This document shows positions 19,383 through 31,631 of a stretch of 38,561 nucleotides of DNA, in pieces. The translations under genes and the position numbers were made by a program. The notes under the pieces were generated by a model that saw nothing but the letters and a program-made list of their open reading frames with translations, had not been told where the DNA came from and made no database searches. Within the stretch, counting starts at the first letter, position 1. Every line of letters starts with the position of its first letter. Origin of the DNA: Terriglobia bacterium (GTDB taxonomy: Bacteria; Acidobacteriota; Terriglobia; Terriglobales; Acidobacteriaceae); assembly GCA_020073185.1 (NCBI GenBank), contig JAIQFT010000036.1, positions 1 to 38,561 on the forward strand, in the 5' to 3' direction.

Positions 19383-20360
19383 ATGACTGACAACGACCAG
19401 AAGTCGCTTTTGCTGCTGAAGCCACGTGGCTTTTGCGCCGGCGTGGTGCGCGCCATTGATATCGTGCGCATCGCGCTGGAAACCTTTGGGCCGCCGATTT
19501 ACGTCCGCAAGGAGATTGTCCATAACCGCTACGTGGTAGAGGAACTCTCCGCCAAGGGCGCAATCTTTGTGGACGGCGTGGACGAGGTTCCGACGGGCGA
19601 GCGGGTTATCTACAGCGCGCACGGCGTTGCGCCCGAAGTTCGCAAGGCCAGCGAGTTGCGCAACCTGCGGGTGATCGACGCCACCTGCCCGCTGGTGACG
19701 AAAGTCCACGTCGAGGCGGTTCGCTTCGCCAAAGAGGGCTACTCGCTGATCCTGATCGGCCATCGCGACCACGACGAGGTGATCGGCACCCTGGGAGAAG
19801 CGCCCGGCGTGACCCAGGTGGTCGGCTCGGCGCGAGAGGTCGAGAACTTGCATGTGCCGGACCCGAACCGGGTTGCGTACCTCACGCAGACCACTCTCAG
19901 CCTGGACGAGACGCGCGACATCGTCGAGGCGCTGGAAATAAAGTTTCCCAATATCAGGGGACCGCTCGCGCAGGACATCTGCTACGCCACCGAGAATCGC
20001 CAGACCGCGGTGAAGCACATCGCCAGCGAGGTGGATTTGCTGCTGGTGGTGGGATCGGATAACAGCTCCAACTCCAAGCGCCTGGTCGAGGTCGCGGGAA
20101 GCCTGCGTACGCCGGCTTACTTGATCGAAAACTACCGCGCCATCAAGTCGGAGTGGCTGGAGGCGGTGAGAAATGTGGCCGTAACTGCGGGAGCGTCGGC
20201 GCCGGAGTGCCTGGTGGAAGAGGTGGTCCAATACCTCCGCGGCAGGGGTTATACCAACCTCCGGGAAGTGGAAGTGATGCCGGAAAACGTCCGCTTTGGA
20301 CTGCCGCCGGAGATCGTCGAGGCGATCGGCAGCGCTCCGGCCACGGTGGCGGCAGAATAA
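19383..20360 (+). CDS. ispH: 4-hydroxy-3-methylbut-2-enyl diphosphate reductase
   Basis: IspH performs the last step of the MEP pathway, reducing HMBPP to isopentenyl and dimethylallyl diphosphate in the cytoplasm. The 325 residues keep the three [4Fe-4S] cysteines: Cys18 (PRGFCAGV), Cys102 (IDATCPLV) and Cys200 (DICYAT). Substrate histidines are seen in IVHNRYV (His47) and YSAHGVAPEV (His80). The serines and asparagine of SDNSSNSKRL near residue 220 complete the active site. The length is typical. The ATG at 19383 opens the family-like start LLLLKPRGFCAG. It lies 46 bases before shc on the same strand. Placing a precursor gene at the head of a hopanoid locus suggests that supply of C5 units is coordinated with squalene and hopene production. 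Confidence 0.97.
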   Translation: MTDNDQKSLLLLKPRGFCAGVVRAIDIVRIALETFGPPIYVRKEIVHNRYVVEELSAKGAIFVDGVDEVPTGERVIYSAHGVAPEVRKASELRNLRVIDATCPLVTKVHVEAVRFAKEGYSLILIGHRDHDEVIGTLGEAPGVTQVVGSAREVENLHVPDPNRVAYLTQTTLSLDETRDIVEALEIKFPNIRGPLAQDICYATENRQTAVKHIASEVDLLLVVGSDNSSNSKRLVEVAGSLRTPAYLIENYRAIKSEWLEAVRNVAVTAGASAPECLVEEVVQYLRGRGYTNLREVEVMPENVRFGLPPEIVEAIGSAPATVAAE

Positions 20361-20406
20361 ATTCGTAGGAGGAGGGTTCGGGCGGGTTTTTCCCCCAGAA
20401 ACCCCG

Positions 20407-22379
20407 ATGAGGTTCGGCAAGATCGACGACATGTTCAGCCGCGTCGCCGCCGCCATGGATGCGGCGCGCAAGCACCTGTTCTCCACCCAACATGAGGATG
20501 GGTACTGGTGTGGCGAGCTCGAGGCGGATTCCACCCTCGAGTCCGACTACATCATGATGCACACTCTCCTCGGCACGGGCGATCCCAAGAGATTTCACAA
20601 GGCTGCCCGCTGGATCATCGAACACCAGAACGAGGATGGCGGCTGGCCGATATTTCCCGGCGGACCTTCCGATATCAGTGCTTCCGTGAAGGCGTATTTC
20701 GCCCTCAAGCTGGCCGGATACAGCGCCGAAGACCCGTTGCTGGCGCGCGCCTGCCGCAAGATTCACGAACTCGGCGGACCGACCTCCGCCAACACCTACA
20801 CCAAGATTTACCTGTGTTTCCTCGGGCAGTACGACTGGTTCGCCGTGCCCGCCATCCCGCCGGAAATCGTCCTGTTTCCCAACTGGTCCTGGTTCAACAT
20901 CTACGAAATTTCGTCGTGGTCCCGCGCCATCTTCATCCCGCTGGCCATCGTGTACGCCAAGAAGCCGTACAAGAAAATTCCCCCGGAGCTGGGAATCGAG
21001 GAACTGTTCCCCGGCGGCCGGGACAACTGCAACCTGTACCTTCACTGGGATTCCAAGATCGTCAGTTGGCGGAATTTTTTCCTGTTTCTCGACCGGGCCA
21101 CGCACTGGTTCGAGCGTTTCCATATCCGGCCGCTGCGTAACATAGCGCTGCGTGCCGCGGAAGAGTGGATGCTGGAGCGCGTCGAGATGAGTGACGGCCT
21201 GGGCGCGATTTACCCGGCCATGATGAATTCCATCATCGCGCTGCGCTGCCTGGGCTACTCGGTGGACGACCCGCAATTCATCCGCGCCCTCGATGAATTC
21301 GAGGCGTTGGGCATCGAGGAAGAGACCACCTTCCGCATGCAGCCTTGCAAGTCACCGGTCTGGGACACGGTCTATGCTCTTTATGCGCTGGGCGAGGGTG
21401 GCGCCGGCGCCAAAGACCCGCGTATGGTCGCCGCCGCCGACTGGGTGCTCAAGAAGCAGGTCACGCACAAAGGCGACTGGTCGATGAAGGACCGGAAAGG
21501 CCAGCCCGCCGGCTGGTATTTCGAATTCAACAACGAGTTCTATCCCGACGTGGACGACACCGCGCAGGCCTGCCTCGCGCTCGACCACGTCGACCATCCT
21601 AACGAGCGCTACCAGCACGAGTCAGTCACCCGCGCCATTGACTGGGTGTTCTCCATGCAGTGCAAGAATGGCGGCTGGGCGTCGTTTGATAAGGACAACG
21701 ACAAGCTGGTGTTCCAGTACATCCCGTTCGCCGACCACAATGCCATGCTGGATCCGGCGACCGTGGACATCACCGGGCGCGTGCTGGAAATGCTGGCGGC
21801 ACACGGCTACACGCGCGAGGATCATCGCGTCCAGCGGGCCATTGATTTCATCCTCAGGGAGCAGGAGCCCGATGGCTGCTGGTTCGGCCGCTGGGGCTGC
21901 AATTACATCTATGGCACCCACCTGGTGCTGCGCGGGCTGGAAGCGATCGGCATCGACCACCATGAGCCGTATATTCAGCAGGCGGCTGAATGGCTGCGCA
22001 TGGTGCAGAACCCGGATGGCGGTTGGGGCGAGAGCCTCTGGTCGTATCACGATCCGGCCGCCCGCGGGGTCGGGCCGAGCACGGCTTCGCAGACGGCGTG
22101 GGCGATTCTCGGGTTGCTCGCGGCGGGCGATACCCGCAGCGACTCCGTCCACAAAGGAATCGTTTACTTGCTGAAGACGCAAAGGCGCGACGGATCCTGG
22201 TGGGAGAAGTGGTACACCGGTACCGGCTTCCCCAAGGTTTTCTATCTCAAGTACAACATGTACGCCGAGTATTTTCCGTTGCTGGCGTTAGCCAACTATC
22301 AAAAAGCCATGACCGCCGCCGATGCCGCCGTCCGGCCGGCCGATAACCGCGCGCCGGAGCGGGAATTGGGAGAAGCGTA

Positions 22380-22380
<1 letters not shown>
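20407..22380 (+). CDS. shc: Squalene-hopene cyclase
   Basis: The enzyme (HpnF) folds squalene into hopene and hopanol at the cytoplasmic membrane. The 657 residues agree with known cyclases (about 630-680). The catalytic DXDD motif is DVDDT at Asp381-Asp384, close to position 374-377 in the Alicyclobacillus enzyme. Several QW repeats are visible (for example QNEDGGWPIF, MQCKNGGWASFD, VQNPDGGWGESLWSY and QRRDGSWWEKW). The typical TGFPKVFYLKYNMYAEYFPLLAL segment ends the protein. The ATG at 20407 fits the family start. A purine-rich AGGAGGAGGG at 20366-20376 lies too far upstream to serve it directly, so initiation is somewhat uncertain. The stop overlaps the hpnH ATG by one base (TAATG), so the two are translationally coupled. 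Confidence 0.97.
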
Positions 22381-23497
<1,117 letters not shown>

Positions 23498-23501
<4 letters not shown>

Positions 23502-23938
23502 CCGGCCGTGAAGCAGGACATCGCGCCCAACTGCACCTGCCCGATCCCGACAGCCTGGAAGTGGTCGAACCCGGCGCGCGCGAAAAACTCGAGGGCTGGG
23601 TCCCGGACCTCGCCGATGAAAACGACCTTCGCGACGCCCTGGAGCGCGCCTTCGACTATCGTGGCGATGTGCTGATCACGCGCAAGGACGGCGACAGGAT
23701 CGAGGGATACTTATTCGACCGCCGCACCGGCCCAACTCTGGCCGACTCGTTTGTCCGCCTGTTGCCGAAGGACGGGACCGGCAAAATCTCAATATCCTAC
23801 GCCGACATTGCCGGCCTTGCCTTCACCGGCCGCGACATGGCTGCCGGCAAAAGCTGGGAGGCGTGGGTTCGCCAGTACTGGGAACGCAAGGCCGCGGGCG
23901 AGCAAGACATTTCGCTGCAGCCCGAGAAGCTCGATTAA
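23498..23938 (+). CDS. Uncharacterised 146-residue protein within the hopanoid operon
   Basis: I do not recognise the family. The start is a TTG at 23498 that overlaps the hpnH stop (TTGA), with AGGAGA at 23485-23490 seven bases before it, so translation from here is likely. The first 45 residues are acidic and probably helical. A compact beta-rich core follows (about 50-115): RGDVLITRKDGDRIEGYLFDR, a turn, VRLLPKDGTGKISISYADIAGLAFTG. The strand pattern with a Gly-Asp-x2-x-Gly turn is reminiscent of Sm-like or SH3-like small barrels, but this is a visual impression. The tail is helical and basic with two Trp (SWEAWVRQYWERKAAG). No signal peptide or membrane segment is present. Position between hpnH and hpnA suggests a role in C35 hopanoid formation or its regulation. 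Confidence 0.75.
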
Positions 23939-23953
23939 GCCGGCTGCGATGTG

Positions 23954-24952
23954 ATGAGGGCGTTCGTAACAGGAGCGTCGGGTTTTGTCGGAAGCCACGT
24001 GGCGCGCGCGTTGGCCGATAGGGGCGCCGAACTGCGGCTCTTGATGCGGGCGTCGAGTCCGACGAAGAATGTCGAAGCGCTGAAGGCCGACCGCGTCATC
24101 GGCGACTTGTGCGAAGCTGACAAGCTGCGCTCGGCGATCGGCGGCTGCGACGCCGTTTTTCATGTCGCCGCCGACTACCGTTTGTGGACGCGCGACGCCG
24201 CCGACATGCGGTCCATGTATCGCTGCAATGTCGAAGGCACGCGCGGATTAATTGACGCGGCGCGGCAGGCGGGCGTGCGGCGGATTGTGTATTGCTCCAG
24301 TGTGGCGACCATGGGTTTCACCGGCAATGGCCGTCCTGCCGATGAAAATTCACCGGTGGAGTTGAAGGGCATGATCGGCCACTACAAGCGCTCGAAGTTC
24401 ATCGCCGAACAGGTGGCGATCGCAGCCGGAAAATCCGGCGGCGACGTGGTCGTCGTGAATCCCACCACGCCGGTTGGCGAGTACGATGTTAAGCCGACGC
24501 CGACGGGACGAATCCTTGTCGATTTCCTGCAGCGCAAGTTTCCGGCCTACGTGGATACCGGGCTCAACGTCGTGGACGTGCGCGAAGTCGCGCGCGGACA
24601 CATCGCCGCCTTCGAGCAGGGAAGAGCGGGAGAACGCTACATCCTGGGCGGCGAGAATCTGACTTTGAAACAGATCTTGGACAAGCTGGCCTCGATCACC
24701 GGACTGGCCGCGCCGACCCTGCGCCTGCCCTATGTGTTCGCGCTTGCCGCGGGCGTCGCGGACACCGTGGTCACCGGGAAAATCCTGCGCCGTGAGCCGC
24801 GAGTTACGCTCGACGCCGTGCGTATGGGCCGCAAAAAAATGTGGGTTTCGTCAGAGAAGGCGGAGCGCGAGTTGGGTTGGAAGATAGTGTCGGTCGACGA
24901 TGCCTTGCGTCGCGCCGTCGCGTGGTTTCGTGCCAACGGTTATGCCGGTTGA
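23954..24952 (+). CDS. hpnA: Hopanoid-associated NAD-dependent epimerase/dehydratase HpnA
   Basis: HpnA is a short-chain (extended SDR) enzyme found in hopanoid clusters; its exact reaction is not settled. The protein starts RAFVTGASGFVGSHVARAL with the nucleotide-binding GxxGFVG at residues 7-13. DAVFHVAADYRLW follows, then the catalytic Tyr-x3-Lys in GHYKRSKFIAE, and NPTTPVGEYDVKPTPTGRI. These details match HpnA rather than a general epimerase. The ATG at 23954 (332 residues) is chosen; a GTG one codon earlier is equally possible. It follows the 146-residue gene by 15 bases and its end overlaps hpnG by 11 bases, so it belongs to the same operon. Confidence 0.92.
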   Translation: MRAFVTGASGFVGSHVARALADRGAELRLLMRASSPTKNVEALKADRVIGDLCEADKLRSAIGGCDAVFHVAADYRLWTRDAADMRSMYRCNVEGTRGLIDAARQAGVRRIVYCSSVATMGFTGNGRPADENSPVELKGMIGHYKRSKFIAEQVAIAAGKSGGDVVVVNPTTPVGEYDVKPTPTGRILVDFLQRKFPAYVDTGLNVVDVREVARGHIAAFEQGRAGERYILGGENLTLKQILDKLASITGLAAPTLRLPYVFALAAGVADTVVTGKILRREPRVTLDAVRMGRKKMWVSSEKAERELGWKIVSVDDALRRAVAWFRANGYAG

Positions 24953-25658
24953 GATCGCCATCATCGCCGCCATGGAACGCGAGGTCCGGTCGCTGGTGCG
25001 CCACTGGCCCCGCCGGGACTTGGCCGCCAGCGATCTCACGCTCCCGGCATTTGCCGGCGACGGCGTCCTGGTGATTTGTTCCGGCATCGGCGCCAGGCTT
25101 GCCCGCCAGGCGGCGGTGGCGGTTTTTGCTTCCCACCGTCCGCGCGTAATAGTCTCCGCGGGTTTGGCTGGGGCGCTGGATTCGAGCTTGGAGGTGGGGA
25201 CAATCTTTCAGCCGGCAACGGTCGTGGATGCGGCTACCGGTGCGCGTTTCAACGCCTGCGGCGGCAGCGGCATACTGCTCACCGTCCCGTCGGTGCTGGA
25301 CCGCGACGCCAAGGGCCGCCTCACCGGTTCGTACGGCGCCGCAGCCGCCGACATGGAAGCTGCCGGGGTCGCGCTGGTCGCCGGCCAACACGGCTGTGGG
25401 TTTATCGCCCTGAAGGCAATATCGGACGTGGCCGGCTTTCCCATGCCGTCGTTCGAACGTTTCATCGACGCGCGCGGCCGTCTTCGAACCGCGCGCTTGC
25501 TGCTCGCGTCCGCTGTACGGCCTGCACGTTGGCTGGCGCTGGCGCGGTTGGGAATAAATTCAAGCCATGCCTCCCGCGAGCTTTCCCGGGCGCTGGCTCA
25601 TCTGATTGAGCAGGAAGGGGCGGCGCTGCAACCGGCGCTGTCCGGCAATAGGAGCTGA
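24942..25658 (+). CDS. hpnG: Adenosylhopane nucleosidase/phosphorylase HpnG
   Basis: HpnG removes adenine from adenosylhopane, giving (phospho)ribosylhopane. The 238 residues are of the purine nucleoside phosphorylase/MTA-SAH nucleosidase fold. Glu12 in IIAAMEREV corresponds to the catalytic glutamate of MTA nucleosidase. AADMEAAGVA (Met138, Glu139) forms the ribose-binding pair. LKAISDVAG carries the purine-contacting Asp162. SGIGARLARQAA is the phosphate-loop-like segment. The ATG at 24942 overlaps the hpnA end by 11 bases; a longer frame from 24900 was rejected. The stop overlaps the first dehydrogenase start (TGATG at 25656-25660), tying that enzyme to the step after HpnG. Confidence 0.9.
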   Translation: MPVEIAIIAAMEREVRSLVRHWPRRDLAASDLTLPAFAGDGVLVICSGIGARLARQAAVAVFASHRPRVIVSAGLAGALDSSLEVGTIFQPATVVDAATGARFNACGGSGILLTVPSVLDRDAKGRLTGSYGAAAADMEAAGVALVAGQHGCGFIALKAISDVAGFPMPSFERFIDARGRLRTARLLLASAVRPARWLALARLGINSSHASRELSRALAHLIEQEGAALQPALSGNRS

Positions 25659-26794
25659 TGTCGGTCGCCACACAAACCGGAACCCGGCGAGACATCCCGT
25701 CCGTCCCTGCCGCCATGCGGGCCGCCGTTTACCACGGGAAGGATGACGTCCGGCTGGAAGCGGTGCCTGTTCCCAGAATCGGTCCCGGCGAACTGCTCAT
25801 CAAGGTGCATACTTGCGGCATTTGCGGCACCGACCTGAAGAAAATCGGCACTGGCTCACATTCCGCGCCCCGCATTTTCGGCCACGAAACCGCCGGTGTG
25901 GTCGTGCAGACAGGGGAAAGCGTAAGCGGTTACGCAGTGGGCGATCGGGTGAGCGTTTTCCATCACATCCCCTGTGGCGAGTGTTTCTATTGCCGTCACA
26001 GGGTGTTTGCCCAATGTCCCGTTTACAAACGGGTAGGATGTACGGCGGGCTTTGAGCCCAGCGGCGGCGGCTTTTCTGACTATGTCCGCGTGATGGACTG
26101 GATCCTGGCCCGGGGCGGGGTGGTGAAGCTCCCCGATGGGGTGTCCTTTGAACAGGCATCCTTCATTGAGCCGATCAACACCTGCATGAAGGGCATCCAG
26201 ACCCTGCGCCTGCAAGCGGGCGAGACGGTCTTCGTGATTGGACAGGGACCCATCGGTATCGTGTTGGGAGCATTAGCCCAACGAGCAGGTGCAAAGGTAT
26301 TCACTTCCGATTTGTTCCCCCAGAGGCTTACAATAGCGGCTGGGTTCGGCCTTAGCGGGTCCATTGATGCCTCGCACTCCGATTCCGTTCAAACCGTGCG
26401 CCAGTGGACCGAGGGGCGTGGGGCCGATGCCGTCATTCTGGCGGTTGCCGGCACGTCGCTGATACGCACAGCCATCGAGGCTGCGCGCTCTGGTGGCAGG
26501 ATCTTACTGTTCGCCCAGACGGTTCGAGGAGAGGCCGTCATCGATCCCGCCGCAATCTGTGTTGACGAGAAGAGTCTGTTGGGCTCATACAGCGCTTCCA
26601 TTGACCTCCAGGAGGAAGCTGTGAGTTTTGTTTGCCGCCGAGAAATGGACTTGGAGCGGCTCATTACGCACCGTTTTCCCCTGGCAAAAGCGGTGGAAGC
26701 ACTGAATTTAGCTGCTCATCCCCGGCCCGAATCGATGAAGGTTGTCATACAGCCGGGGTTGGAACCCGAACCTCAAGTGGGCCCTTCACCATAG
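25658..26794 (+). CDS. Zinc-dependent medium-chain dehydrogenase A in the hopanoid operon
   Basis: This is a polyol/threonine dehydrogenase-like oxidoreductase of 378 residues. The catalytic zinc ligands appear as Cys56 (GICGTDL), His76-Glu77 (FGHETAG) and Glu171 (FIEP). The structural zinc cysteines are Cys106, 109, 112 and 120. The Rossmann loop is GQGPIG (195-200), and Asp218 at the end of the second strand favours NAD(H). The ATG at 25658 has AGGAG at 25650-25654 and overlaps the hpnG stop (TGATG), so it is translated with hpnG. The first 18 residues are an extension before the usual family start. In context it may oxidise or reduce the sugar-derived side chain of ribosylhopane (inference). 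A sugar alcohol dehydrogenase unrelated to hopanoids cannot be excluded. Confidence 0.88.
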   Translation: MSVATQTGTRRDIPSVPAAMRAAVYHGKDDVRLEAVPVPRIGPGELLIKVHTCGICGTDLKKIGTGSHSAPRIFGHETAGVVVQTGESVSGYAVGDRVSVFHHIPCGECFYCRHRVFAQCPVYKRVGCTAGFEPSGGGFSDYVRVMDWILARGGVVKLPDGVSFEQASFIEPINTCMKGIQTLRLQAGETVFVIGQGPIGIVLGALAQRAGAKVFTSDLFPQRLTIAAGFGLSGSIDASHSDSVQTVRQWTEGRGADAVILAVAGTSLIRTAIEAARSGGRILLFAQTVRGEAVIDPAAICVDEKSLLGSYSASIDLQEEAVSFVCRREMDLERLITHRFPLAKAVEALNLAAHPRPESMKVVIQPGLEPEPQVGPSP

Positions 26795-26828
26795 GTTCCG
26801 CGGGCGGCACAAAAGGGAAGGAAAGCTA

Positions 26829-27878
26829 GTGAATGGACATATGACAGCTGCGGTCCTCTATGGTAAGGAGGACGTTAAGATTGAGCGAGTGCCTATCCCC
26901 CGGGTGGGACATGGAGAGGCCCTCATCAAGGTACAAGTCGCTCTGACCTGCGGCACCGATCTCAAAGTGTACCAGCGCGGATACCACGCCCGCATGATCG
27001 TTCCGCCCGCTCTTTTCGGCCACGAACTGGCGGGGGTGATCGAGGAGGTCGGAGCCGGCGTCAAGGGTTTCCGCTCCGGCATGCGGGTGGTGGCGCTGAA
27101 TTCGGCGCCCTGCCAGATGTGCTTCTACTGTTCCAAGCACCAGGAGAACCTCTGCGAGGATCTGCTCTTTAACAATGGCGCCTATGCCGAGTACATCAAG
27201 ATTCCGCGCCGGATTGTCGAAAGCAACATGCTGGCCGTGCCCAGCAATGTCAGCTATGAAGAAGCGGCCATGGTCGAGCCGCTGGCCTGCGTGCTGCGCG
27301 GCCTGCACGAGACCAACGTCGAAATCGGCGACACCGTGGTCGTCATCGGCGGCGGACCCATCGGCCTGATGTTCGTCCAAGTCGCCAAGCTCACCGGATG
27401 CAACGTTATCTCCGTGGCCAAGCGCGATTCCCAGGTTTCTGCGGCCAAGCGCCTGGGCGCCGACGACGTCGTCCAGATCACCCAGGTGCAGGACGCCGTG
27501 GATGCCGTGCGCGCGCTTACCCCGGACCGCCGCGGCGCGGATGTGGTCATCGAGGCGGTCGGACGTCCCGAGGCCTGGGAATGGTCCATTGATATGGTAC
27601 GCAAGGGCGGCACCGTCAATTTCTTCGGCGGATGCGCCAGCGGGACCAAGGTCGCCCTCGACACCAATCGCTTGCACTACTCCGAGATTTCGCTGAAGGC
27701 CACCTTTCATCACACTCCGGAAACGGTTCGCAAGGCCTTTGCCCTGATCGCGGAACGCAAGATCCGCGGTGCGGATTACATTACCGGCGAGGCGCCGCTC
27801 TCGCGCTTGCAGCAAGTGCTACGCCACATGCTGAACCGCAACGGCGACATCAAGACCGCCATCATCCCCGGGCACTGA
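26829..27878 (+). CDS. Zinc-dependent medium-chain dehydrogenase B in the hopanoid operon
   Basis: This is a second sorbitol-dehydrogenase-like enzyme, paralogous to its neighbour (AAV-x-x-GK-x-DV near both starts). Catalytic zinc ligands are Cys41 (TCGTDL), His65-Glu66 (FGHELAG) and Glu150 (MVEP). Structural cysteines are Cys95, 98, 101 and 109. The Rossmann loop is GGGPIG. At the position of the NAD-binding Asp of the neighbour it has Ala197-Lys198-Arg199, which suggests NADP(H) use. GTG at 26829 (349 residues) is chosen for the AAGGAA just upstream; ATG at 26841 is the alternative. It begins 34 bases after dehydrogenase A and is followed by a terminator-like hairpin. A reductive role after HpnG would fit the cofactor signature (inference). 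Confidence 0.88.
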   Translation: MNGHMTAAVLYGKEDVKIERVPIPRVGHGEALIKVQVALTCGTDLKVYQRGYHARMIVPPALFGHELAGVIEEVGAGVKGFRSGMRVVALNSAPCQMCFYCSKHQENLCEDLLFNNGAYAEYIKIPRRIVESNMLAVPSNVSYEEAAMVEPLACVLRGLHETNVEIGDTVVVIGGGPIGLMFVQVAKLTGCNVISVAKRDSQVSAAKRLGADDVVQITQVQDAVDAVRALTPDRRGADVVIEAVGRPEAWEWSIDMVRKGGTVNFFGGCASGTKVALDTNRLHYSEISLKATFHHTPETVRKAFALIAERKIRGADYITGEAPLSRLQQVLRHMLNRNGDIKTAIIPGH

Positions 27879-27973: not shown

Positions 27974-28972
27974 ATGTTGAGGGCCACTCCCAATTCCGTC
28001 CCCTTCGCCGGATTGCCGGCGGAGTACGCCATTCCCGCGCAGGCGCCGTCGCTGACCGAAGCGCGTGCCTACTGTGCGCGGCTGGCGCGCCGGCATTACG
28101 AGAATTTCTCCGTCGCCACCTGGTTCCTGCCGGAGCGCGTCCGGCCGCATTTCTACAGCGTGTACGCCTACTGCCGCATTTCCGACGACCTGGGCGATGA
28201 GGTTTCCGACCCGCGGCAAGCACTGCGCCTGCTCGACGAATGGGAAGAAGAACTGAACGCAACCTATCTCAGCCTGGTGGCGCCTCCGCCCCTGGACGTA
28301 CGCATGAATGTCGAGCAGCTTCAGCCTGGGCCATCCTCCAGGAACCCGGCGCGGCCGCGCCACCCGGTATTCATCGCGCTGCGGGAGACCATTCGCGAGT
28401 GCAACATCCCGCACCAGCCATTCGCCGATCTTTTGAAGGCCTTCCGCCAGGACCAGAAGCTGGGCCGATACCAGACCTTTGACGATGTTCTCCGATATTG
28501 TTGTTACTCCGCCAATCCGGTAGGACGCCTCGTGCTTTATGTCTGCGGCTATTGCGACGACGCGCGGCAGCGGCTTTCCGATTACACCTGCACCGCGTTG
28601 CAACTGGCGAATTTCTGGCAGGACGTCTGGCCCGACTACGGCAAGGGCCGCATTTACATTCCGCTCGAAGACTTACAGCGTTATGGCGTCAGCGAGCAGG
28701 ACATTGCCGCCCGCCGCTTCACGCCGCAGTTCCGCGAGCTGATGAAATTTGAAGTCGAGCGCGCTCGCGATTGGTTCGCGCGTGGCGCACCGTTGGCGCG
28801 CGAGGTAGACAAGAAGCTGGCGATTGACATCGAGCTCTTCACCCGCGGCGGGCAGGAAATCCTGAACGCGATCGAGCGCCAGGGCTTTGACGTTCTCACC
28901 AGGCGGCCCGCGATCTCCAAGGCTCGGAAGTTGGCTTTGATCGCCCGTTCGGCATTCGGGATGGTGCTTTAA
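27974..28972 (+). CDS. hpnC: Squalene synthase-like HpnC (hydroxysqualene synthase)
   Basis: HpnC converts presqualene diphosphate to hydroxysqualene, the middle step of the three-enzyme bacterial squalene route. The 332 residues show the first aspartate-rich motif DDLGDE (Asp71-Glu76) and the second around NFWQDVWPDYGKGRIYIP (Asp217, Asp221), both diphosphate-magnesium sites. The start NFSVATWFLPERVRPHFYSVYAYCR is characteristic of HpnC. An extra stretch of about 28 residues (about 102-129, rich in Pro, Gln and Arg) sits before the RHPVFIALRETI helix and looks like a loop insertion. The ATG at 27974 is nine bases after the inverted-repeat element; no good ribosome binding site is seen. hpnD follows after a 197-base gap with REP-like hairpins. 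Confidence 0.93.
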   Translation: MLRATPNSVPFAGLPAEYAIPAQAPSLTEARAYCARLARRHYENFSVATWFLPERVRPHFYSVYAYCRISDDLGDEVSDPRQALRLLDEWEEELNATYLSLVAPPPLDVRMNVEQLQPGPSSRNPARPRHPVFIALRETIRECNIPHQPFADLLKAFRQDQKLGRYQTFDDVLRYCCYSANPVGRLVLYVCGYCDDARQRLSDYTCTALQLANFWQDVWPDYGKGRIYIPLEDLQRYGVSEQDIAARRFTPQFRELMKFEVERARDWFARGAPLAREVDKKLAIDIELFTRGGQEILNAIERQGFDVLTRRPAISKARKLALIARSAFGMVL

Positions 28973-29056: not shown

Positions 29057-29169
29057 CTGAGGGACCGGCGATGTGCTTGATCAGAGCTTCCTTAGCCGGG
29101 ACCGGAAGCAAGCGGTCCGCCGTTGATCATCGGAAGGATCTGGGATTCGCTGCGTCCATCGAAAAAACC

Positions 29170-30114
29170 ATGACCGTTCTCGCCCAAACCGGACAGGCGC
29201 CCAGCGCCCCGCGAGTCGCCCCGCTGCAACTGCGCACCGCGTACGGCATCTGCCGCCACATCACGCGCAAGGCGGCGCGCAACTTCTACTACGCTTTCCT
29301 GGTGCTGCCGCGGCGCAAGCGCGACGCCCTCAGCGCCGTGTACGCCTTCATGCGCCACGCCGACGACATCAGCGACGATCCACTGCTCACGCCCGAGGAC
29401 AAGCGCCTCAAGCTTAACGCCTGGATCGAGTCCCTGGACCGTATCGTTGCCGGCGAGCCCACCGACGATCCCGTGCTCATGGCGGTTGCCGACAGCCAGC
29501 GCCGCTTCCATATCCCCATCGAATTACTGGAAACACTGGTTTACGGCACTGCCATGGACGTCCCCTGGCCCGGTAGCCCACAACCAACGGCCGACGGCCC
29601 CCAGGTGCTCTACCAGACTTTCGACGATCTCTATAATTACTGCTATCACGTCGCCTCCGTTGTCGGCCTGGTCTGCATTCGTATCTTCGGCTATCGCGAT
29701 CCGGTGGCGGAGGATCTTGCGGAGCGCTGCGGCATCGCCTTTCAACTCACCAATATCATTCGCGACGTCAAGGAAGACGCCACCATGGGCCGCATCTACT
29801 TGCCGCAGCAGGATCTTGATCGCTGCGGCATCGGCGCCAGCATGTTCCGTTCGTCCAGGCCGACCAATTTCCGCCCCCTGCTGGAGATGGAAGCCGAGCG
29901 TGCCCGCCAGTACTACGCCTCCGGGCGCCAGTTGATCGCTTACGTGGACGAAGATAGCCAGCCCGCGCTTTGGACGCTGGTGGAAATTTACAGCCGCTTG
30001 CTCGCCAAAATCGCCGACCGCGATTACGACGTCTTCACCGAGCGCGTGTGCCTGACTACCAGCGAAAAGCTTCGTGTTCTGATCAAGGGGATGTGGCGGC
30101 GGATCGTCACATGA
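29170..30114 (+). CDS. hpnD: Presqualene diphosphate synthase HpnD
   Basis: HpnD condenses two farnesyl diphosphates to presqualene diphosphate, the first committed step to squalene. The 314 residues carry DDISDD (Asp65-Asp70) and NIIRDVKEDATMGRIYLP (Asp199, Glu202, Asp203), the two metal-diphosphate motifs of squalene/phytoene synthases. RKAARNFYYAFLVLPRRKRDAL is typical of HpnD. A short extra loop (about residues 133-147, Pro/Gly-rich) precedes TFDDLYNYCYHVASVVGL. The ATG at 29170 was chosen because the family-like sequence starts soon after; a frame from 29071 would run out of the repeat region. The ribosome binding site is weak. The end overlaps hpnE by four bases (ATGA). Confidence 0.93.
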   Translation: MTVLAQTGQAPSAPRVAPLQLRTAYGICRHITRKAARNFYYAFLVLPRRKRDALSAVYAFMRHADDISDDPLLTPEDKRLKLNAWIESLDRIVAGEPTDDPVLMAVADSQRRFHIPIELLETLVYGTAMDVPWPGSPQPTADGPQVLYQTFDDLYNYCYHVASVVGLVCIRIFGYRDPVAEDLAERCGIAFQLTNIIRDVKEDATMGRIYLPQQDLDRCGIGASMFRSSRPTNFRPLLEMEAERARQYYASGRQLIAYVDEDSQPALWTLVEIYSRLLAKIADRDYDVFTERVCLTTSEKLRVLIKGMWRRIVT

Positions 30115-31631
30115 TGATGATCGCCCACAATGCGCCGACGGTGGCGGTTGTCGGCGGAGGACTCGCCGGACTGTCCGCCGGATGTGCTCTGGCGGGCGCC
30201 GGCTTCCGCGTCTCGTTGTTCGAGCGCCGCCCGTACTTGGGCGGCCGCGCCTCTTCCTACCAGCACCCCGCTACCGGCGAGGTGGTCGACAACTGCCAGC
30301 ACGTGCTGCTCGGCTGCTGTACCAATCTGCTTGATTTCTACCGCCGCATCGGCGCCGCGGACAAGATCCGCTGGTACCGCCGCCTCACCTTCATCGAGCC
30401 CGGCGGACGCCGCTCCCTCATCGAGCCGGGACTGCTGCCCGCTCCATTTCATAGCGCCGGCTCCTTCCTGCGCGCGCCTTGCCTTTCCTTAGGCGACAAG
30501 ACGGCCATCGCACGTGCCATGCTGGCCCTCGCCGCTCGCCTTCCCGACGACAACGGCGATCCGTTCTTCGACTGGCTCCATGCCCGCGGCCAAACGCAGC
30601 GGGCCATCGATCGCTTCTGGAGGGTGGTGTTGGTCAGCGCGTTGAACGAAGACCTGGAACGCGTCTCGTCGCGTTATGCCGCGCAGGTTTTTCGCGAATC
30701 ATTCCTGAAATCGGCGCAAGCAGGTGCGCTCGGCCTGCCGGCTCTACCGCTGTCAGATCTATACGGAATTGCCGGCGATTACATCCTGCAACAGGGTGGC
30801 GCCGTCGCAATGCGCGCCAGCGTCGATTCCTTCCGCGCCGATGCCAACCAGGTCCGCATCTGCGCAAGCGGGCGAGACTTCGCTTGCGACTACGCCGTCC
30901 TTGCCGTCCCATTCCAGGCGCTGCCGGGCATAATACCCAGGGATGAAGATGAAGACGACCTGTCAGCCGCCTTGCGCTCGATGCTTGATCGCTTCGAAAC
31001 TTCGCCTATCACCGGCATTCACCTCTGGTTCGACCGCCAGATAACCGACCTGCCGCATGCTGTGCTTCTGGATCGCACCATCCAGTGGATGTTCCACAAA
31101 TCGGAGATTCTCGATCGCAGTGGCAGTACTCCTGCGTCCATGCCTGACGCCAACGCAGGGGCGGCAGATCTTAGCCCGGGGCGTAAGCCCCGGGTAAGCA
31201 ACAATCGTGACTCGGAGTCCCGTAGGGACGGCACCAGGGGGGGCTACATAGAGTTGGTTGTCAGTTCTTCGAAAAACCTGGTCGAGAAATCCAAACAGGA
31301 AATCCTCAACCTCGCCATGCGCGAGCTGGCCGAATTTTTCCCCGAAGCGAACCACGCCCGGCTGCTGAAGTCGGCCGTCATCAAGGAAGTGAACGCCACC
31401 TACGCGCCGCTGCCGGGCACCGATGCGCATCGCCCGGCGCAAGTCTCTCCCTGGCCTCGCGTGTTCCTTGCCGGCGACTGGACCGCCACCGGTTGGCCCG
31501 CCACCATGGAAGGTGCCGTCCGCAGCGGCTATCTCGCCGCCGAGGCGCTTACAACCCGGTCCGGCAGGCCGCAACGCTTCCTGGTGCCCGACCTGCCGGC
31601 CCGCGGATTTATGCGTTTGCTGGGAAAGTGA
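30111..31631 (+). CDS. hpnE: Hydroxysqualene dehydroxylase HpnE (FAD-dependent)
   Basis: HpnE reduces hydroxysqualene to squalene, the substrate of the cyclase. The protein has 506 residues. An FAD-binding GGGLAGLSAG (residues 15-24), FERRPYLGGRASSY, VDNCQHVLLGC and WRVVLVSALNEDLERVSSRYAAQVF follow the HpnE pattern. The C-terminal FAD segment is FLAGDWTATGWPATMEGAVRSGYLAAEAL. About residues 338-376 form a low-complexity insertion rich in Ser, Arg, Asp and Gly, coded by a double-hairpin repeat (see 31165-31235). The frame is kept across it. Three ATGs overlap at 30111-30119; the first makes the usual four-base overlap with hpnD. It ends the plus-strand hopanoid set and is convergent with the EamA pair. 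Confidence 0.92.
   Translation: MMMIAHNAPTVAVVGGGLAGLSAGCALAGAGFRVSLFERRPYLGGRASSYQHPATGEVVDNCQHVLLGCCTNLLDFYRRIGAADKIRWYRRLTFIEPGGRRSLIEPGLLPAPFHSAGSFLRAPCLSLGDKTAIARAMLALAARLPDDNGDPFFDWLHARGQTQRAIDRFWRVVLVSALNEDLERVSSRYAAQVFRESFLKSAQAGALGLPALPLSDLYGIAGDYILQQGGAVAMRASVDSFRADANQVRICASGRDFACDYAVLAVPFQALPGIIPRDEDEDDLSAALRSMLDRFETSPITGIHLWFDRQITDLPHAVLLDRTIQWMFHKSEILDRSGSTPASMPDANAGAADLSPGRKPRVSNNRDSESRRDGTRGGYIELVVSSSKNLVEKSKQEILNLAMRELAEFFPEANHARLLKSAVIKEVNATYAPLPGTDAHRPAQVSPWPRVFLAGDWTATGWPATMEGAVRSGYLAAEALTTRSGRPQRFLVPDLPARGFMRLLGK
31165..31235. repeat. Palindromic repeat element inserted in frame in hpnE
   Basis: CCCGGGGC at 31175-31182 pairs perfectly with GCCCCGGG at 31187-31194 around GTAA. 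A second hairpin, GTCCC (31217-31221) with GGGAC (31225-31229) around GTA, follows. The outer bounds are approximate. The architecture is that of an intergenic REP-like element, yet it lies inside the hpnE coding frame without stop or frameshift. It encodes a Ser/Arg/Asp-rich stretch foreign to the flanking conserved HpnE sequence. Confidence 0.65.

Follow-up and report, generated by a model that had tools for sequence, protein, structure and literature searches.

Two adjacent genes encoding zinc-dependent dehydrogenases, here termed ADH1 and ADH2, lie within the hopanoid biosynthesis gene cluster of a contig from a Terriglobia bacterium (assembly GCA_020073185.1, contig JAIQFT010000036.1, i.e., contig 36 of the genome referred to here as G000), the whole of which, 38,561 nucleotides in length, is called the window below. 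Gene context and co-occurrence support the view that ADH1 and ADH2 are inherited together and that, in some Acidobacteriota and Armatimonadota, these zinc-type medium-chain dehydrogenase/reductase (MDR) enzymes take part in hopanoid biosynthesis. Membership of the pair in the hopanoid pathway is well supported by both linkage and co-occurrence, with exceptions in genomes G211, G221, G252, G255, G284 and G362. The genes themselves are, by position, already in print, for cultivated Acidobacteria, as ug1 and ug2 (Sinninghe Damsté et al., 2017; PMC5462960); what is new here is that they are co-inherited and hopanoid-linked as a pair. Hopanoids are sterol-like bacterial membrane lipids much used as molecular fossils, and the reduction that forms bacteriohopanetetrol (BHT) is without an accepted gene. 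The present findings narrow where to look for that gene and also caution against taking the pair for the general reductase, which it cannot be.

Linkage of ADH1 and ADH2 to hopanoid genes

The order of genes on the + strand of the window is ispH-shc-hpnH-orf-hpnA-hpnG-ADH1-ADH2-hpnC-hpnD-hpnE. As stated in the initial annotation, the two dehydrogenase ORFs (25658-26794 and one ending at 27878, both on the + strand) directly follow hpnG, with the sequence TGATG being common to the hpnG stop codon (TGA, 25656-25658) and the ADH1 start codon (ATG, 25658).

In a scan of a genome collection containing one genome per species, 563 ADH1 relatives were confirmed, of which the top 80 in similarity to the ADH1 of genome G095 were considered. 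Because G095 ADH1 itself sits in a hopanoid cluster, this sample leans to hopanoid clusters, and shares among these 80 loci, being those nearest to the hpn-cluster sequence, are not shares among all relatives. Within the best 80 of 563, hpn or shc genes were found within five ORFs of ADH1 in 74 loci. A same-strand ADH2 match of more than 200 bits was seen in 77 of the same 80 loci, with the same 4-base overlap in 63 of these 77 loci; in L122, L150 and L174, only 62-244 bases were available after ADH1. Six loci are without hpn neighbours (L133, L151, L153, L154, L159 and L162), and in all of these except L133, HpnH scored above cut-off elsewhere in the genome. The metagenome-assembled genome (MAG) from Verrucomicrobia that includes L162 contains an hpnH region 70% like that of the window, together with a relative of the 146-amino acid ORF found there, and may be mis-binned or transferred.

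The order hpnA-(hpnG)-ADH1-ADH2-hpnC/hpnD was conserved in the Acidobacteriota families designated f1, f2 and f50, as well as in f28, there without hpnG. Loci with Bryobacterales or Bryobacteraceae in the title cluster with f2, and most of the Bryobacterales-titled ones have hpnG. In split clusters (e.g., those of G210 and G049), ADH1 remains with hpnG and ADH2 remains before hpnC, and both genes were retained though apart in 18 of 25 f1 genomes and in G255. This conserved gene order, taken together with the co-occurrence described below, answers the possibility that the pair is arranged in this manner by chance.

Co-occurrence of the pair with HpnH and HpnC

Co-occurrence was considered in 247 Acidobacteriota genomes, with an ADH1 orthologue being defined by at least 49% identity (the next relative being at 39%) and HpnH being called from a match to the window HpnH at E 1e-40 or better. 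An ADH1 orthologue was found in 38 of the 247 genomes, and HpnH in 35 of these 38, as opposed to 27 of the 209 others. The ADH1-positive, HpnH-negative genomes are G113, which has shc, G211 and G221. ADH2 orthologues (at least 51%) were found in the same 38 genomes and in G132. When the window HpnG was used as query at E 1e-8, hpnG was detected in 26 of the 38 ADH1-containing genomes, namely, all 25 f1 genomes and G179; the hpnG of G095 was recognised by the HpnG model. ADH1 and HpnH co-occur even where unlinked. The four divergent HpnH proteins checked, all from genomes free of ADH1 orthologues (G051, G165, G222 and G235), passed the HpnH model cut-off. The cluster of G007 (L035, 8452-10676) retains shc, hpnH and the small ORF, after which come an IS630 transposase and the end of the contig; no orthologue of hpnG, ADH1 or ADH2 was detected in the assembly. 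Loss in one linked event would fit this arrangement, and an assembly gap also fits.

The second set comprised 151 genomes of the phylum of G247 which, being a Chthonomonadales MAG, belongs to the Armatimonadota. Here, ADH1 and ADH2 orthologues were found in the same 17 genomes, set apart by gaps in score from 287 to 198 bits for ADH1 and from 312 to 241 bits for ADH2. HpnH was present in 30 of the 151 genomes, HpnC scored above cut-off in 31, and at least one of the two was found in 33, while neither model scored above cut-off in any of 14 control genomes. HpnH was detected in 14 of the 17 pair-positive genomes vs. 16 of the 134 others (Fisher test, 3.5e-9, one-sided and ignoring kinship), HpnC in 15 of the 17 (Fisher test, 1.8e-10, two-sided and likewise ignoring kinship), and one or the other in 17 of the 17 vs. 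16 of the 134. The pair is patchy within hopanoid makers and unseen outside them in the 151-genome Armatimonadota set. In seven of the 17 genomes, the pair adjoins hpnC/hpnD, namely, in G284, G290, G329, G336, G362 and G385, with ADH2 alone doing so in G255. Weak matches in the stretches read around the Armatimonadota pairs, i.e., radical-SAM proteins at 28-29% in G311 and G380 and, in G255, a short-chain dehydrogenase/reductase (SDR) at 31%, were not counted.

The tie to the hopanoid pathway drawn in the initial annotation is accordingly upheld, both by gene order over several Acidobacteriota families and by co-occurrence also where the genes are unlinked. The check suggested there, co-occurrence with hpnH, came out in favour in one direction, given the presence of HpnH in 35 of 38 and 14 of 17 pair-containing genomes, but not in the other, as many HpnH-positive genomes are without ADH1.

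A tree generated by a quick method contained a single 44-row group on each of the ADH1 and ADH2 sides, with values in the Shimodaira-Hasegawa-like approximate likelihood ratio test (SH-aLRT) of 99 and 89, respectively. Because both groups hold hpn-linked, Armatimonadota and f39 rows, with deeper pairs lying outside on both sides, the pair seems to be old and to move together.

Sequence features of ADH1 and ADH2

Both ADH1 and ADH2 score above cut-off for PF08240 and PF00107, identifying them as zinc-dependent MDR enzymes with GroES-like and Rossmann domains and zinc ligands. No NCBIfam model reached cut-off for either protein, the best being scyllo-inosose 3-dehydrogenase for ADH1 (NF041097; 159.8 bits vs. 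a cut-off of 450) and threonine dehydrogenase for ADH2 (TIGR00692; 172.7 bits vs. a cut-off of 458). Assignment to a family on the basis of known models was therefore rejected, with all NCBIfam scores being under cut-off and Pfam giving superfamily domains only.

The ADH1 columns corresponding to Cys56, His76, Glu77, Glu171 and Cys106/109/112/120, which we take to be zinc ligands, are invariant in 46 of 46 sequences. In ADH2, the presumed ligands are the four structural cysteines, His64, Glu65 and Glu149, all invariant in 39 of 39 sequences, and Cys40, which is Cys in 33 and Asp in six. A Cys-to-Asp swap of a catalytic-zinc ligand is also found in archaeal glucose dehydrogenase. Apart from this position, the earlier description of the zinc ligands as intact holds throughout, as does the proposed split in cofactor type between an ADH1 with Asp218 (NAD-type) and an ADH2 with Ala-Lys-Arg (NADP-type), conserved in 46 of 46 and 37 of 39 sequences, respectively. 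In ADH1, the residue after beta-2 at the Asp218 position is acidic in each case (D in 45 sequences and E in one). In ADH2, the corresponding turn reads K, R or N and then mostly R in 37 sequences and DKE in two, with the more distant ADH2 relative L044 likewise having an acidic turn; the basic rather than acidic nature of the Rossmann fold after beta-2 in 37 of the 39 is what would be expected of an NADPH-dependent reductase. Judged from these residues, the two are likely a conserved couple of NAD-type ADH1 and NADP-type ADH2.

In sorbitol dehydrogenase (SDH), an Arg-Tyr pair (Arg298-Tyr299 in the human enzyme) binds the polyol. At this site, ADH2 has His293-His294 in 39 of 39 sequences, while the stretch of ADH1 that corresponds, where the alignment is uncertain, reads Gly309-Ser310-Tyr311-Ser312. 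The description of both enzymes as sorbitol dehydrogenase-like can thus be kept at the superfamily level but not in the sense of SDH proper, given the His-His of ADH2 in place of Arg-Tyr and that no NCBIfam model, including those for polyol dehydrogenases, scored above cut-off. AlphaFold2 models of ADH1 and ADH2 were obtained with predicted local distance difference test (pLDDT) values of 93.5 and 93.2, respectively. A fold search with these models returned the general alcohol dehydrogenase/SDH/threonine dehydrogenase fold, which does not tell substrates apart.

The gene cluster of the window

The genes of the cluster, with the model scores on which their names are based, are as follows.

19383..20360, + strand: ispH (LytB), first gene of the cluster (PF02401, E 1.5e-93)
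20404..22380, + strand, exact start unsettled: shc, squalene-hopene cyclase (TIGR01507, 745.7 bits, cut-off 431)
22380..23501, + strand: hpnH, adenosylhopane synthase, radical SAM (TIGR03470, 535.5 bits, cut-off 225)
23498..23938, + strand: 146-amino acid ORF overlapping the end of hpnH, ug3 of PMC5462960 by position
23951..24952, + strand: hpnA, SDR "hopanoid-associated sugar epimerase" (TIGR03466, 478.1 bits, cut-off 367.65)
24942..25658, + strand: divergent hpnG-like gene of the nucleoside phosphorylase family (best family TIGR03468 HpnG, 95.2 bits, below the cut-off of 187.1)
25658..26794, + strand: ADH1, predicted NAD-type zinc MDR dehydrogenase, 378 amino acids, ug1 of PMC5462960 by position (PF08240/PF00107)
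26829..27878, + strand: ADH2, predicted NADP-type zinc MDR dehydrogenase, 349 amino acids, ug2 of PMC5462960 by position (PF08240/PF00107)
27974..28972, + strand: hpnC, hydroxysqualene synthase (TIGR03464, 336.1 bits, cut-off 250)
29071..30114, + strand: hpnD, presqualene diphosphate synthase (best family TIGR03465, 252.9 bits, below the cut-off of 278.6)
30108..31631, + strand, exact start unsettled: hpnE, hydroxysqualene dehydroxylase (TIGR03467, 474.1 bits, cut-off 283)

As its score falls under the cut-off, the hpnG of the window is named a divergent HpnG from its best match and position. ADH2 most likely starts at GTG 26829, just after AAGGAAAG, to give a protein of 349 amino acids, rather than at the mechanically assigned TTG 26742; in a close ADH2 orthologue (L068), the ORF begins at a Met matching GTG 26829.

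We infer from position, that in the split clusters of G210 and G049 included, that ADH1, ADH2 and the 146-amino acid ORF correspond to ug1, ug2 and ug3, respectively, placed after hpnG, before hpnC and after hpnH in those passages of the survey of acidobacterial hopanoids that describe them, where ug2 is presented as a Zn-binding alcohol dehydrogenase of about 350 amino acids (PMC5462960). For the 146-amino acid ORF, no Pfam or NCBIfam match was found at E 0.001; relatives follow hpnH in f1 genomes and also occur in a Verrucomicrobia MAG (L175). As for the first gene of the cluster, ispH also follows hpnA in 15 of 21 Armatimonadota HpnH loci (among L197-L209, L213, L215 and L240), mostly with hpnG next. 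These Armatimonadota sequences are 30-34% identical to the f28 ispH over most of their length, and the two checked pass the IspH model cut-off.

Pairs without hopanoid genes and hopanoid clusters without the pair

Several observations sit poorly with a fixed role for the pair in hopanoid biosynthesis. An ADH1 orthologue is absent from 27 of the 62 HpnH-positive Acidobacteriota and from 16 of the 30 HpnH-positive Armatimonadota, and the pair changes state at least seven times on the HpnH tree of these 30 Armatimonadota genomes; completeness is unstated for the Armatimonadota genomes, making absences there soft. In the other 10 of the 17 Armatimonadota pairs, no hpn gene was found in the stretch read. 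The pair is found without HpnH or shc in G221, G252, G255, G284, G362 and G211. Of these, G211 is 84% complete and has ispH and hpnA beside the pair, whereas G221 (f39), in which the pair is also present, is 100% complete, and a search of this genome for HpnH, shc and HpnG found none. G132 has an ADH2 orthologue (56%) without HpnH, and the deeper pairs are found away from hpn clusters, in some cases in genomes lacking HpnH.

The neighbours of non-hpn pairs include proline dehydrogenase, prephenate dehydratase, a solute-binding protein and a cytochrome c assembly protein. An ancestral function drawn from 10 such neighbouring proteins was rejected, the only common element being proline dehydrogenase in two f39 genomes. 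There, the pair follows the proline dehydrogenase gene (L054, 7108-10614, and L062, 8056-11264), one of the two genomes being G221.

In f28, hpnA directly precedes ADH1, with no hpnG between them, in nine of nine genomes (L053, L055-L060, L064 and L065). The same arrangement was seen in L161, L165 and L167. In the two f28 genomes checked, the best remaining candidates scored about 86 bits as methylthioadenosine/S-adenosylhomocysteine (MTA/SAH) nucleosidase and 70-72 bits as HpnG, although the HpnG model is a weak judge, its cut-off being passed by none of 27 genomes, that of the window included, and the model matching 11 of 14 controls at the same E-value.

In 10 further Acidobacteriota families, clusters with all or most of shc-hpnH-hpnA-hpnG were found, but the stretch fetched did not include the pair. 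In one of these, that of G066 (f39), the pair is present on another contig. In three pair-free Acidobacteriota stretches, a squalene synthase-type gene was found (TIGR01559, 74-83 bits, below cut-off), such that squalene may be made there by another route:

L081, 7913-8866: squalene synthase-type gene, right after hpnG
L083, 580-1647: squalene synthase-type gene, right after hpnG
L084, 153-1406: squalene synthase-type gene, in the same stretch

Presumed Chloracidobacterium genomes (G096, G123 and G165) contain only relatives, at 46-47% for ADH2 and 33-34% for ADH1. In G165, the one looked at, no hpn gene was found beside these relatives.

Possible roles of the pair

Since relatives with core hopanoid genes lack the pair, the pair is optional, and represents either a tailoring step or one of a number of interchangeable ways of achieving the reduction. 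Moreover, a general ribosylhopane reductase should be present wherever ribosylhopane is produced by HpnH and HpnG; because many HpnH-positive relatives are without ADH1 (27 of 62 and 16 of 30), the pair cannot be that enzyme. The reading preferred here, to which an even chance is given, is that ADH1 and ADH2 form a redox pair, limited to certain lineages and using two different cofactors, that acts in some form on the side-chain polyol, presumably that built by HpnH and HpnG. With cofactors as predicted from their sequences, ADH1 with NAD+ would remove a hydride from a side-chain hydroxyl, and ADH2 with NADPH would deliver a hydride to a side-chain carbonyl on the catalytic zinc. A possible though rather doubtful identity for this carbonyl is the C-35 aldehyde that ribosylhopane exposes on ring opening. 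It is also conceivable, if unlikely, that the carbonyl is a ketone made by ADH1, with the pair inverting or adjusting a stereocentre. In one form of this scheme, likewise given a low probability, ADH1 with NAD+ would oxidise the secondary C-34 hydroxyl of BHT or ribosylhopane to a ketone, as in SDH-type catalysis, and ADH2 with NADPH would reduce this ketone from the other face to yield the 34R form, the direction being set by the NAD/NADPH couple. If true, this would provide the gene basis for a hopanoid stereoisomer.

The substrates of SDH-type enzymes are secondary alcohols or ketones, with reaction at the carbon adjoining the chain terminus. As that site would be C-34 in bacteriohopanetetrol, the chemistry of the class suits C-35 reduction no better than it does a C-34 ketone or epimer reaction. 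The conversion of ribosylhopane to BHT, by contrast, takes an aldehyde to a primary alcohol at C-35, a point that also counts against the C-35 option. As such, the argument in the initial annotation that a polyol/sugar dehydrogenase class suits the substrate received no support. With respect to C-34, both the 34R and 34S isomers of BHT are known, according to the passages concerned of a 2025 paper (PMC12583986).

The initial annotation had assigned the pair to ribosylhopane reduction. That the primary alcohol of BHT arises when the C-35 aldehyde of ribosylhopane is reduced by one of the two enzymes, of which NADPH-using ADH2 is the likelier, is now a tentative proposal, held at well below even. 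In its favour, hpnG is immediately upstream of ADH1 in numerous Acidobacteriota loci, those of f1 and f2 among them, ADH2 has an NADP-type turn and the pair co-occurs with HpnH. Yet ADH1 is missing from the HpnH-positive genomes counted above, the pair is kept in f28 without a cluster hpnG, and in the 17 Armatimonadota loci read it is next to hpnC/hpnD in seven (ADH2 alone in G255) and never next to hpnG. Two enzymes, let alone two with opposite cofactors, are needless for a single step, and the polyol-binding Arg-Tyr of SDH is His-His in ADH2. Of the statements found in the pertinent passages of the literature, two favour the proposal: the enzyme converting ribosylhopane to BHT was still not established in 2025 (PMC12583986), such that the earlier remark on a reductase without an accepted gene stands, and products of tetrafunctionalised bacteriohopanepolyols (BHPs) were reported for every subdivision 1 and 3 strain tested, the subdivisions where ug1 and ug2 occur (PMC5462960). 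A third goes the other way, in that BHT and BHT cyclitol ether are cited from Chloracidobacterium thermophilum (PMC5462960), yet G096, G123 and G165 have only distant relatives of the pair.

Alternatively, HpnA could reduce ribosylhopane in these phyla, leaving ADH1 and ADH2 an extra tailoring step, which is possible without being probable. This role for hpnA was proposed by the authors of the 2017 survey (PMC5462960), and hpnA lies beside hpnH in 18 of 21 wide-flank Armatimonadota HpnH loci, pair-positive and pair-negative alike, and in most of the pair-free Acidobacteriota clusters read. On the other hand, hpnA is not beside hpnH in L205, L210, L214 and L086 and, as described in the relevant passages of the two papers, is, on the evidence noted there, non-essential for BHT in Burkholderia cenocepacia, is lacking in Rhodopseudomonas (PMC5462960) and is absent from six of 48 alphaproteobacterial genomes (PMC12583986).

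A different view, considered unlikely, is that the pair is part of the squalene-forming HpnC-HpnD-HpnE module, acting, for example, on hydroxysqualene or on a farnesyl-derived alcohol or aldehyde. In the 17 Armatimonadota loci read, the pair (ADH2 in G255) is beside hpnC/hpnD in seven and beside hpnH, hpnA, hpnG or shc in none. In G255, G284 and G362, the pair points to squalene, because hpnC is present without HpnH or shc, although these genomes may be incomplete. Similarly, ADH2 stays before hpnC in split Acidobacteriota clusters, and the squalene synthase-type genes listed above, all below cut-off, lie in pair-free stretches. However, ADH1 stays with hpnG in those same split clusters, HpnC is found in each of the 16 Armatimonadota that are HpnH-positive but pair-negative, and in G275 and G307 the pair and HpnH occur with no HpnC above cut-off, these HpnC counts covering the Armatimonadota set only. 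Furthermore, hpnCDE alone suffices to make squalene. Co-occurrence in Armatimonadota does not distinguish between a role tied to HpnH and one tied to HpnC.

Least probable of the readings weighed here is that the pair is a general two-gene alcohol dehydrogenase unit whose metabolic task has nothing to do with hopanoids and which is a passenger in the cluster. The varied neighbours of non-hpn pairs (proline dehydrogenase, prephenate dehydratase, solute-binding and cytochrome c assembly genes) and the G221 pair, found without shc, HpnH or HpnG, would be in line with this. Against this stand the gene order preserved across families and the fact that the pair co-occurs with HpnH or HpnC also when not linked to them.

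Comparison with known systems

Like ADH1 and ADH2, the threonine and scyllo-inosose dehydrogenases are zinc MDR enzymes, but their models give the present sequences scores of 151-173 bits vs. cut-offs of 450-458. The best solved sequence match to ADH2 (E 3e-39) is 1e3j, the NADP(H)-dependent ketose reductase of the silverleaf whitefly, a member of the sorbitol dehydrogenase family. The turn TARSPRR of 1e3j aligns with the basic turn VAKRDSQ of ADH2; however, the two proteins share 28% identity, and the pocket-region Arg-Tyr is replaced by His-His in 39 of 39 ADH2 sequences.

In the literature, mainly open-access papers, the only pertinent statements encountered, in the passages bearing on these genes and this step, were the 2017 mention of ug1-ug3 (PMC5462960) and the comment from 2025 that the enzyme has yet to be established (PMC12583986). 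The passages on ug1-ug3 assign no function and are without an annotation for ug1 or reference to cofactor type, Armatimonadota or co-occurrence. Where ug2 is reported there as absent from C. thermophilum (PMC5462960), an ADH2 relative at 46-47% was found here in presumed Chloracidobacterium genomes.

Within the hopanoid clusters themselves, HpnA (TIGR03466) invites the closest comparison. Like the pair, it is an oxidoreductase-type cluster gene product of unproven function, but it belongs to the short-chain family and is found in most clusters both with and without the pair. Although Proteobacteria can manage without it, as noted in the survey passages concerned (PMC5462960), HpnA, as an oxidoreductase common to most clusters whether or not the pair is present, is the candidate for the common ribosylhopane step that deserves testing first.

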